A program made the translations under genes and the position numbers. Below are positions 136-3,321 of a stretch of 64,000 bases of DNA, in pieces. How positions within the stretch are numbered: position 1 is the stretch's first letter; the number at the start of each line of letters is the position of its first letter. The notes beneath the pieces were generated by a model. The model made no database searches, was not told the origin of the DNA, and saw only the letters and a list, made by a program, of their open reading frames with translations. The DNA is from an uncultured Trueperaceae bacterium. Lineage in GTDB: Bacteria; Deinococcota; Deinococci; Deinococcales; Trueperaceae. The stretch is taken from the NCBI GenBank assembly GCA_937907415.1, contig CALCHY010000161.1:12248-76247 (forward strand), given 5' to 3'.

Positions 136-1647
136 ATGTCGGCTCTTTACCAACGGGCACGGCCGGTCACGTTCGACGAGGTCGTGGGGCAGGACCACGT
201 CAAGGACGTCCTGACTTCCGCCATCAGGCGCGGGCGAGTCGGGCACGCTTACCTATTCTCTGGGCCGCGCGGGGTTGGTAAGACGACCAGCGCGAGACTC
301 CTCGCCATGGCCGTCAACTGTGAGGCCCCCGCCGAGCAACGCCCGTGCGGTGTCTGCGAGTCGTGCCGCCTCGTCCAGGCCGGTTCGCACCCGGACGTCA
401 TCGAGCTTGACGCGGCTTCCAACAACTCCGTCGAGGACGTGCGCGACTTGCGCGAACACGCCATGCTCGCGAGCATGCGCGGCGGCACGCGCGTCTGGAT
501 CCTCGACGAGGCGCACATGCTCAGCAAAGCCGCAGCTAACGCCCTGCTCAAGACGCTCGAGGAACCGCCGCCAGGTCTGATGTTCATCCTCGCGACGACT
601 GAACCGGAGCGCCTGCCGCCGACGGTGCTCTCGCGCTGCCAGCACTTCCGCTTCCGGCGCTTGACTGACGGCGAGATCGTCGGGAAACTGGCGCGGCTCG
701 CGGAGGGCGCTGGCGTGGCCGCAGAGGCGCCCGCCCTCGACCTAGTGGCGCGCAGTGCGGACGGCGGCATGCGCGATGCAGAGTCGCTCCTCGATCGCCT
801 CCTAGCCACCGGCGAGCCTGTGACGCTGCAACACACGGAGGACGCGCTCGGACTACCACCTCACGAGCGGCTGCTTGCCATGGCGGCAGCCTTGGCTACC
901 GGCGACCTGACTGGTCTCCTCGAGCAGGCGGGCAGCCTCTACCGGGCGGGTTTCGCGCCGCGCACCCTCGCCGAGCAGTTGGCGCGCACCTTGCGGACGG
1001 CGCTGCACGCCCAACTAGCTGGCGAGTCGCAGCTCGCGCTCACGGACACGGAACTACTGCGACTACTCCACGCGCTCGATGACGAGCAGGAGCGCTTCAT
1101 CAGGCACGACGACCTCTACTCACTCGAGGTCGCTCTCATCAAGGCGCGCAACGCGCTTAGCGGCAACGTGCCCGCCGCGTTCACAGCGCCGGCCGCCGCC
1201 ACGCATGAAGCTCAGCAGACCGCGGCACCGAAGCGTGCGGAGCCCAAGAAGGTCGAGGGCCCGAGCGCGGCGCCCCGTGACGTCGGGGAGAGGGATAAGC
1301 CAGCGGAGCCAGCCGCCGAGGCGGCGCCCGCCGTCGAGGCGCCGCCCATGGCGGGCGCCCCGGCCGGCGCCTTCTCGTGGCATGCCGTGAGGAGCCGCGC
1401 CGACGTGCGCCTCAAGGCCTTCCTCGCCCCAGCACGCGTTGAGCAAGCAGACACGGTCATCCGCGTGATCTTCCCCGCAGAGAACGAGTTCCACCACAAG
1501 CAACTGCTCCAGCGCCTTGACGAGTTCACGAAGCTAGTGGCTGAGGTGGCTGGCCCCGGGTACGAGTTGGTCATCGACGGACCCGCAGGCAACGCGCGCG
1601 CCAAAGTCACGGGCGCCACTAGCGGTGGTGGTCCAAAAAAAGCCTGA
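136..1647 (+). CDS. dnaX: DNA polymerase III clamp loader, gamma form (zero-frame product of dnaX)
   Basis: 503-aa AAA+ clamp-loader subunit that helps load the sliding clamp at the replication fork. Visible landmarks: Walker A SGPRGVGKTT near residues 42-51, four zinc-ligand cysteines (62, 71, 74, 77), Walker B ILDEAH near 122-127 and the sensor motif LSRC near 165. The C-terminal third is Ala/Pro/Glu-rich up to about 410, then the polymerase-side domain begins. The frame ends PKKA-stop immediately after a run of seven A, far shorter than a tau protein. The -1 frame stays open for another 221 codons, so this product most likely corresponds to gamma. The start is the ATG with a TAGACT box 9 nt upstream. 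Confidence 0.95.
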   Translation: MSALYQRARPVTFDEVVGQDHVKDVLTSAIRRGRVGHAYLFSGPRGVGKTTSARLLAMAVNCEAPAEQRPCGVCESCRLVQAGSHPDVIELDAASNNSVEDVRDLREHAMLASMRGGTRVWILDEAHMLSKAAANALLKTLEEPPPGLMFILATTEPERLPPTVLSRCQHFRFRRLTDGEIVGKLARLAEGAGVAAEAPALDLVARSADGGMRDAESLLDRLLATGEPVTLQHTEDALGLPPHERLLAMAAALATGDLTGLLEQAGSLYRAGFAPRTLAEQLARTLRTALHAQLAGESQLALTDTELLRLLHALDDEQERFIRHDDLYSLEVALIKARNALSGNVPAAFTAPAAATHEAQQTAAPKRAEPKKVEGPSAAPRDVGERDKPAEPAAEAAPAVEAPPMAGAPAGAFSWHAVRSRADVRLKAFLAPARVEQADTVIRVIFPAENEFHHKQLLQRLDEFTKLVAEVAGPGYELVIDGPAGNARAKVTGATSGGGPKKA

Positions 1648-1670
1648 CGGGGCGGGCAGTTCCCGCTCCG
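1635..1670 (+). other. dnaX: Probable programmed -1 frameshift site in dnaX
   Basis: Seven consecutive A (1635-1641) sit exactly in the phase A AAA AAA of a bacterial slippery heptamer, followed by GCC TGA. Six nucleotides later a 9-bp stem (1648-1656 paired with 1662-1670, one G-U, loop CAGTT) begins, which is standard spacing for a stimulatory stem-loop. Slipping back one base leads into a frame open to 2306. Transcriptional slippage on the A run could give the same result. I see no strong upstream Shine-Dalgarno stimulator such as E. coli dnaX has. Confidence 0.8.
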
Positions 1671-2306
1671 CAAGCGAGCAAACCGGAAGGGCGAACCAGC
1701 GAGGCGGCCGCGTTCGACCCTGCGCCTCGCCGGCCGCGGCCAACCCCCGCCCCGGTAGCCCAAGCTCCGCAGCCTGCGCCGGCCACGCCCCCGCCAGCTG
1801 CGCGCCCAAGCAACGCTCCGGCCGAGGTCACGGACTTCATTCCGGAGGACGTCGACTCGTCATTCGGTGGCGCCACTGGGGACCTGTGGGCGGACGACGG
1901 GAGCGATGAACTCCCCGCGGTGGGTGGCGGAGCGCCGGTCGACGATGAGTCACCCGAGCTGGCGACGCCGAGCCAGTCAAGCACTCAGGTCCGCTCGAGC
2001 AGCCGCACAGCGCCTGCCGCGCGACCAGCGCCGAGCAGAGCCGGCGAGCGCCCACCGCGCGGCGGGAGCAAGCCACCCGCTATTCAGCCTGCGTTCGAGC
2101 CTAAGACCGTCAGTTCTGACACGCCGCAGGGCAAGGCGTTCGCGGAGTTGGTCGCGCTCTTCCCCGGCAAAGTCATCGAGGTCGTTCCGCTGCGCCAAGC
2201 TGCTGACACCGGGGACGAGAGCGACGCACAGAGCGCAACAGAAGCGGCCTTCGCTGACGGGTACGATGACCCAACCGGCGCCGAGTTGGACAACGACGAC
2301 GCCTGA
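1641..2306 (+). CDS. dnaX: Tau-specific C-terminal extension of dnaX, reached by -1 frameshift
   Basis: Translated from AGC at 1641, this frame is open for 221 codons to the TGA at 2304-2306. Joined to the first 502 codons it gives a tau of about 723 aa. The extension starts Pro/Ala-rich and continues into an acidic segment (AEVTDFIPEDVDSSFGG) and a small folded-looking end (GKAFAELVALFPGKVIEVV), as expected for a linker and a polymerase- or helicase-binding domain. The stretch from GTG 1920 could be called as a separate 128-aa gene, but no Shine-Dalgarno or TANNNT box supports an independent start. The proposed product is therefore the fused tau. Confidence 0.75.
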   Translation, partial: SLTGRAVPAPQASKPEGRTSEAAAFDPAPRRPRPTPAPVAQAPQPAPATPPPAARPSNAPAEVTDFIPEDVDSSFGGATGDLWADDGSDELPAVGGGAPVDDESPELATPSQSSTQVRSSSRTAPAARPAPSRAGERPPRGGSKPPAIQPAFEPKTVSSDTPQGKAFAELVALFPGKVIEVVPLRQAADTGDESDAQSATEAAFADGYDDPTGAELDNDDA

Positions 2307-2357: not shown

Positions 2358-2669
2358 GTGAACATCCAGAAGCTGATGAAAGAAGCCCAACGCGCCCAGC
2401 AGAAAGTGAACGAGGCGCAAGAGCGCCTGGCAAGCATGACCGTCGAGGGCTCGGCGGGCGCCGGCTTGGTGCGTGCAGAGGCAACGGGCGACGGCACCGT
2501 CACCAAGGTGCGCATCGATGCCAAGGTCGTCGACGCGTCAGACGTCGAGATGCTCGAAGACCTCGTCACGGCCGCCGTAAGCGACGCTCAGCGCAAGGCC
2601 AAGGAACTGCAGGAGAAGGAGATGGGCGCTGCCATGGGCGGCATGGGCGGCCTCGGGGGCATGCTCTGA
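2358..2669 (+). CDS. YbaB/EbfC family nucleoid-associated protein
   Basis: 103 aa, the usual length for YbaB/EbfC proteins, which bind DNA as dimers. It starts MNIQKLMKEAQRAQQKVNEA, a long amphipathic helix, followed by the conserved central strands (GLVRAEATGDGTVTKVRID) and a second helix, and ends with a Gly/Met-rich tail (MGGMGGLGGML). The GTG start has GAGGAG 5 nt upstream. Placement between dnaX and recR is the classical bacterial arrangement. The gap after the tau stop codon is 51 nt, so co-transcription with dnaX is likely. Confidence 0.93.
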   Translation: MNIQKLMKEAQRAQQKVNEAQERLASMTVEGSAGAGLVRAEATGDGTVTKVRIDAKVVDASDVEMLEDLVTAAVSDAQRKAKELQEKEMGAAMGGMGGLGGML

Positions 2670-2718: not shown

Positions 2719-3321
2719 ATGAGCGTGCGCTTCCCAACGGCGCTCCTTACGCTCATCCGCGAGCTGGGGCGCCTGCCTGGCATCGGGCCGAAGAGCGCTC
2801 AGCGCCTGGCGTTCTACCTCTTCAACCGCCCTGAAGAGGAAGTGAGGGCGCTTGCCGCCGCCCTCGTAGAGGCTAAGACGGGCCTCGAGCGTTGCCCGCT
2901 CTGCTTCAACGTCATGAGCAGCGGGTCTGACTGCTGCGCCGTGTGCGCAGACACGCGCCGCGACCGCGCCCTCTTGTGCGTTGTCGAACAACCAGCTGAC
3001 TTGCTTGCCATCGAGCGCTCAGGCGAGTACCAGGGCCTGTATCACGTGCTGCACGGCTCCCTCAGCCCCATGAACGGCATCGGACCTGAGCAACTGACCA
3101 TCGCCGCCCTTCAACAGCGCCTAGCTGGCGTGCGCGAGGTCGTCCTCGCCACCTCGACCACCGTGGAAGGCGAGGCAACGGCGCACTACTTGGCGCGCCA
3201 ACTCGGGTCCTCAGGCGTTGCGGTCAGCCGTATCGCGTACGGTCTTCCCGTAGGCGGGGACCTAGAGTACGCAGACGAGGTTACGCTAGGCCGCGCCATC
3301 AGTAACCGGCGCCCAGTCTGA
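2719..3321 (+). CDS. recR: Recombination protein RecR
   Basis: 200 aa, normal for RecR. It forms a ring-shaped clamp that works with RecO (and RecF) to load RecA on gapped DNA. The N-terminal helix-hairpin-helix LGRLPGIGPKSAQRLAFYL is clear, followed by a C4 zinc finger (CPLC then CAVC near residues 56-74) and a Toprim domain with CVVEQPADLLAIE and the GSLSPMNGIGPE segment. No Shine-Dalgarno is visible before ATG 2719, and the gap after ybaB is 49 nt. The recO gene lies 3 kb downstream, which is uncommon co-localisation. Confidence 0.96.
   Translation: MSVRFPTALLTLIRELGRLPGIGPKSAQRLAFYLFNRPEEEVRALAAALVEAKTGLERCPLCFNVMSSGSDCCAVCADTRRDRALLCVVEQPADLLAIERSGEYQGLYHVLHGSLSPMNGIGPEQLTIAALQQRLAGVREVVLATSTTVEGEATAHYLARQLGSSGVAVSRIAYGLPVGGDLEYADEVTLGRAISNRRPV

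Follow-up and report, generated by a model that had tools for sequence, protein, structure and literature searches.

A slippery heptamer in the dnaX genes of Trueperaceae and its candidate role in -1 ribosomal frameshifting to the tau subunit

The stretch of DNA analysed here (the window, 64,000 nucleotides from an uncultured Trueperaceae bacterium) carries on its + strand a dnaX gene, followed by ybaB/ebfC (2358..2669; TIGR00103, 83.3 bits against a cut-off of 49.45) and recR (2719..3321; TIGR00615, 235.7 bits against 162.55). The zero frame of dnaX (136..1647), as read from the open reading frames of the window, runs from ATG at 136 to TGA at 1645-1647 and encodes a protein of 503 aa with the C-terminal ending PKKA, corresponding to gamma. 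Its AAA+ ATPase N-terminus places it in the gamma/tau clamp-loader family, with NCBIfam matches above the curated cut-offs for NF011524 PRK14963 (690.6 bits vs 601) and TIGR02397 (355.5 bits vs 250).

The zero frame ends shortly after the heptamer A_AAA_AAA (1635..1641, + strand), which lies in the phase CCA AAA AAA GCC TGA and has the X_XXY_YYZ form of a -1 programmed ribosomal frameshift signal. The TGA stop (1645..1647, + strand) lies one codon past the heptamer, and its first base is the fourth beyond the A7. The -1 frame (1641..2306, + strand) stays open for 221 codons to TGA at 2304-2306 and encodes the tau-specific C-terminal residues, giving a predicted tau of 723 aa (502+221). The gene has thus the two-ORF organization of the GeneTack type, with a zero frame that ends as gamma and a -1 frame that encodes the tau C-terminus. 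A first-pass annotation had described the in-phase A7, the stop 4 nt beyond it and a 221-codon -1 frame leading to a tau of about 723 aa, and on re-reading these were exact to the base. The A7 is the sole A or T run of at least six in the 64 kb; such a run is expected 0.32 times per window and was present in 26 of 100 shuffles, so that the run alone is unremarkable and the weight rests on its conservation in relatives. The reading of the site as a terminator was rejected, as no terminator-like site was found within 1500-2400.

A hairpin is predicted 6 nt past the heptamer (1648..1670, + strand), with a stem of 9 bp including one G-U (1648-1656 / 1662-1670), a 5-nt loop (CAGTT) and a spacer at 1642-1647; the first-pass annotation had given a stem of this length at this distance. 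The predicted fold of 1642-1680 has -22.1 kcal/mol (z -2.45; 6 of 200 shuffles as good), with z values of -1.18 and 0.08 for longer stretches of 101 and 141 nt, and among 583 other 36-nt windows in the neighbourhood 20 reach a fold as good. Ahead of the slippery run, the SD-like stretch GGTGGTGG (1624..1631, + strand; anti-SD pairing -8.3 kcal/mol) is a possible stimulator, its pairing being matched by 3% of the coding windows of the gene. RF00382, which we take to be the Rfam DnaX frameshift element, was not matched in positions 1400-1900 of the window (two sub-threshold matches to other families, E up to 10) or in six relatives (seven sub-threshold matches to other families, E up to 10).

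A scan of genomes for related loci gave at least 80 loci, and the 17 closest among the matches listed were assigned to Deinococcota, Deinococci, Deinococcales, Trueperaceae or Truepera. Of 111 genomes searched across the phylum, 104 have a dnaX match and seven lack one at the cut-off; the resulting table and tree include 105 loci, the window among them. The window falls in a clade of 36 rows (support 100/99) containing all 17 of those listed loci, from which the name Trueperaceae-like clade is derived. Five of the rows (G090, G002, G015, G097 and G012) are ended by contig ends before the site, leaving 31 readable genes. Among the 69 genes outside the clade, 13 were dropped, nine being cut and four having no run of at least six in the searched stretch. 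L088, a duplicate of L003, was excluded.

Split dnaX genes were found in 29 of the 31 readable members of the clade. Their sites are A_AAA_AAA in 16 (one within an A9), A_AAA_AAG in 11 (for instance A_AAA_AAG CCC TAG followed by a hairpin in G109), G_GGA_AAA in one (G092) and a displaced A7 in one (G004). The heptamer is in phase at 28 of the 29, G_GGA_AAA counted, and exactly one codon separates heptamer and stop, also in 28. The comparison with relatives proposed in the first-pass annotation thus finds A_AAA_AAR in the same phase at 27 of 29 split sites. Its reading of a -1 shift for tau and a zero frame for gamma is supported by the phase, heptamer, stop and -1-frame protein kept in 28 relatives, one of them with a displaced run, and by the hairpin kept in most of these. 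The zero-frame stop is TGA in 20, TAG in five and TAA in four of the split genes, which indicates that the stop itself is conserved and not its letters. The first lysine codon of the site is AAA in 27 of 27 A_AAA_AAR genes, and AAA accounts for 116 of the 374 lysine codons elsewhere in the 29 split genes, six of which prefer AAA over AAG. The two exceptions to the split are G093, a single open frame with no slippery run or shift site, and G091, which has an A9 and tau in the zero frame. Relatives with one frame and no slippery run, named in the first-pass annotation as evidence against its reading, are represented in the clade by G093 alone.

Some genes of the clade depart from the common form of the site. 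G092 (L157, 1236-1281) has G_GGA_AAA in place of the A run and retains the stop and the hairpin. In G004 (L004, 6669-6683) the A7 is shifted by 2 nt (CCG AAA AAA ATA GTC TGA) without a clean heptamer, and its ATA is the sole one among 12 isoleucine codons counted. Seven of 120 database proteins end in PKKI[AV], one of them with the length and ending of G004, so this gene looks like a lineage variant. In the draft genome of G013 (L013), the 5' part of dnaX is out of frame with the remainder, probably through an assembly error.

The 36-nt stretch of the hairpin folds better than its shuffles in most split genes of the clade (mean z -2.48; below -1 in 24 of 29 and below -2 in 20 of 29), and in 21 of the 29 the site ranks in the top 5% of windows from the region of its gene, the others being L001, L005, L008, L016, L103, L131, L145 and L154. 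In the five nearest kin of the window (L145, L154, L001, L131 and L016), between 7 and 55% of the gene-region windows fold equally well; their hairpins are unexceptional for their genes, a point that weighs slightly against the frameshift reading. The expectation of the first-pass annotation that relatives would share the stem holds for most of the clade and fails in G005 (z 0.74), G008 (z -0.46) and G103 (z -0.42), where the hairpin is weak or absent. Unlike the split clade, the 57 phylum genes with A8-A10 (56 outside the clade plus G091) have no general hairpin at the same place (mean z -0.15; 11 below -1, four below -2; p 1e-9 for the comparison, kinship ignored).

Conservation of the stem was judged by an arm-swap test together with pair counts on each sequence, in place of column covariation; MAFFT left the 3' arms unaligned because the stem lengths differ. 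Own hairpin arms gave -18.7 kcal/mol vs -14.4 for exchanged arms (p 7e-6, kinship ignored), and own arms were best in 8 of 29, with p 0.03 for the inner arm alone (kinship ignored); in the window, the own arm falls behind 10 of 28 foreign arms. One position of the 5' stem has G-C, C-G, U-A and A-U pairs among the clade sequences, a count that leans towards structure because it was made on the predicted fold of each sequence. The 9 bp of the window, the swap test and the pair types are consistent with a stimulatory structure maintained by paired changes, one that is weak in the three genes named above. The SD-like stretch ranks in the top fifth in 24 of 29 split genes vs 22 of 56 controls, a moderate enrichment (p 0.0024).

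The -1 frame appears, from its pattern of substitutions, to encode a constrained protein. All 15 pairs of the six nearest genes have a dN/dS of 0.38-0.78 in this frame, values to be read with many dS above 1 and gappy alignments of proline/alanine-rich tails, and third positions vary most in every pair. Two motifs are present in the -1 frame of the window: DFIPEDVDSSFGGATGDLW (1833..1889, + strand), conserved in the alignment of the six nearest tails, and the tau C-terminal motif FAELVALFPGKVIEVVPL (2139..2192, + strand), with [LI]F[PA]G in 27 of 29 clade tails. G095 has VFPG at this place. The -1 tail of G096 (L167) lacks the LFPG-like motif seen in the other clade tails, possibly because of a second frame change or an assembly error. 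In single-ORF relatives, a similar C-terminal motif closes the zero frame.

Among the best 120 of 5029 gamma homologues in the database, 108 are of gamma length (600 aa or shorter), ending in [KRG]Kx (90), KKI[AV] (seven, like G004), PKA (seven) or otherwise (four); the tau C-terminus is therefore missed in these entries. The 12 longer forms contain the tau motif, and beyond residue 420 none of them has a KK. No in-frame A8 version was found among these 120, which speaks against a sequencing error or a drifting run length. The gamma-length relatives ending in PKA (P0019, P0024, P0026, P0031, P0033, P0043 and P0057) may, judging from these endings, possibly use a C_CCA_AAA site.

Homopolymers are generally error-prone, and an error of sequencing or assembly could have hidden a true A8 gene with one open tau frame. 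This is very unlikely, to the point of being negligible, because 29 of the 31 clade genes are split. Another 28 genomes have the split at this very place, long chromosomal contigs included (G003, 4.29 Mb; G109, 3.26 Mb), in line with the view of the first-pass annotation that stem and phase speak against an error; moreover, the stop is kept, the hairpin is kept in most, sites with A6 exist and no KK-bearing long form is present among the best 120 of 5029 proteins. The gene might otherwise be truncated, making gamma only, with the -1 frame as a relic. The predominance of gamma-length proteins among the nearest database entries (108 of the best 120 of 5029) would suit such a loss, and G093 shows that a shift site can disappear, though tau stays there in a single frame. 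Truncation is nevertheless highly doubtful. All 15 pairs compared give a dN/dS below 1 for the -1 frame, as if it were under constraint, its end has the tau motif that single-ORF relatives have in their zero frame, and decay would not keep heptamer and stop jointly.

A different source of tau would be the RNA polymerase slipping on the A run, as in the dnaX of Thermus thermophilus, with an added A allowing ordinary translation to give tau. That gene is a proven case (passages of PMC5009743 and PMC1088944), and the 56 run genes outside the clade, of the 69 considered, all have their run at the same place as A8 (8), A9 (45) or A10 (3). The zero frame of these genes continues past the run in 47, ends there in eight and halts earlier in one, a pattern consistent with transcriptional slippage of the Thermus type, under which frame drift is tolerated. 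Eight of the A9/A10 genes, Thermaceae-like by inference, have a DNA-level frame ending at gamma (L110, L125, L126, L134, L138, L144, L149 and L156). Slippage at a low rate is conceivable on an A7, and PMC1088944 leaves room for it on shorter runs in some bacteria; G005, with an A9 and no hairpin, may take this route. However, runs of only six or seven A occupy 27 of the 31 clade sites, the A7 of the window being shorter than the approximately nine A of the Thermus type, and according to PMC1088944 selection against slippage becomes visible at length nine in a large share of genomes. Also, 28 of the 29 split genes in the clade keep a single phase, unlike the long-run genes, which drift between frames (DNA-level splits in 8 of 55), and 11 clade sites consist of A6 followed by G, with GGGAAAA in G092. 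Slippage of the polymerase is thus unlikely in the window, and the ribosome is favoured because of the eleven A6 sites and the one site with no A6 run.

Here it is proposed, with a probability of roughly 0.87 and on comparative sequence evidence, that tau is made from dnaX by a programmed -1 ribosomal frameshift and that normal decoding gives gamma. The ribosome would read CCA AAA AAA in the zero frame and be stalled by the hairpin, perhaps together with the upstream SD-like stretch, while two lysyl-tRNAs occupy AAA AAA. A fraction of the ribosomes would then shift one base backwards to the overlapping AAA AAA and go on with AGC CTG, producing a tau of about 723 aa, and the remaining ribosomes would read GCC TGA and terminate to release gamma of 503 aa. 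We infer slippage in the cell, its translational nature and its rate from the sequences; the tail encoded in the -1 frame would presumably allow tau to bind its usual partners.

The A_AAA_AAG sites bear on the lysine tRNAs involved. The idea that genomes with this heptamer lack tRNA-Lys(CUU) was rejected, since an exact pattern search found this tRNA in nine of 11 of them; it was also found in 10 of the 15 A_AAA_AAA genomes searched, absence in drafts being weak evidence. ARAGORN confirmed tRNA-Lys(CUU) in six genomes checked, five of them of the A_AAA_AAG type. Parts of PMC5009743 suggest that two lysine tRNAs are maybe relevant to the use of slippage in Thermus, and describe A_AAA_AAA, in E. 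coli, as shifting far less readily than A_AAA_AAG, which is a point against the frameshift proposed for the window. The presence of A_AAA_AAG beside tRNA-Lys(CUU) counts against frameshifting, as less slippage would be expected; with nine of 11 genomes having both, either the two-tRNA rule is not general or the shift uses other features. An A_AAA_AAA heptamer can work, as a proven insertion-sequence case with a stem-loop indicates (Sharma 2014, PMC4066793, in part).

When the run type (A8+, short or none) is placed on the tree, at least four changes are needed, and the simplest history is a single gain of the short-run signal with departures in G005, G091 and G093. The split versus single frame requires ten changes. 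G005 (L005, 6438-6446) has an A9 inside the A6/A7 clade and no hairpin, and is a single suggestive case of what is perhaps a return to transcriptional slippage. For most Trueperaceae, it seems reasonably likely that tau is made solely by ribosomal frameshifting. This would have a single origin from an ancestor with an A9 and polymerase slippage, with a change of decoding machine and an exchange of roles between the two frames, both products being kept, and would work at A_AAA_AAG despite tRNA-Lys(CUU), against the two-tRNA suggestion made for Thermus. A single phylum would then contain lineages that seemingly decode this two-product gene by RNA polymerase slippage and one that seemingly relies on the ribosome slipping, the switch between them being traceable. 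The cultured type strain Truepera radiovictrix apparently bears the signal, which makes the mechanism and the tRNA question testable.

The inverted logic pointed out in the first-pass annotation, with tau as the recoded product, is real, yet has been described in other bacteria (passages of PMC3711429 and PMC5009743), and the Trueperaceae are a new lineage of it. In the text available from Antonov 2013 (PMC3711429), 17 dnaX genes in 12 genera need recoding for tau and are termed a "new gene type"; nine have A10, three have 9, 8 and 7 A's, and transcriptional slippage is suggested for the poly-A two-ORF genes. Trueperaceae are absent from the names given in these passages, though Truepera could be among the five genes of that set with no poly-A. 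Sharma 2014 (PMC4066793) also mentions, in the part available, dnaX cases with a longer product. In the open-licence literature searched, no report of dnaX frameshifting for Trueperaceae was found. Against that literature, three points are apparently new: that the signal occurs across the family, that decoding apparently switched within a single phylum, and that A_AAA_AAG is found beside a second lysine tRNA.

As in the two-ORF dnaX genes of GeneTack, as far as that set is described in the passages available, the zero frame ends in gamma just past the shift site and the rest of tau comes from another frame; unlike that set, with A10 in nine of 17, the Trueperaceae-like clade has A6/A7, mostly with a hairpin, throughout the family. 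The nearest precedent in the sources, as partly available, is the dnaX of Chlorobium phaeobacteroides with seven A's, for which Atkins 2016 (PMC5009743) mentions potential E. coli-like stimulators from unpublished work. The Escherichia coli dnaX shares with the window an A_AAA_AAG-type heptamer, a downstream hairpin and an upstream SD-like stimulator, but its zero frame gives tau and its -1 frame stops at once to give gamma, roles that are reversed in the window, where the -1 frame is the long one. The dnaX of Thermus thermophilus is alike in gene, place, phylum, poly-A run and two products, and differs in having an A9, tau in the zero frame and an RNA polymerase that slips.
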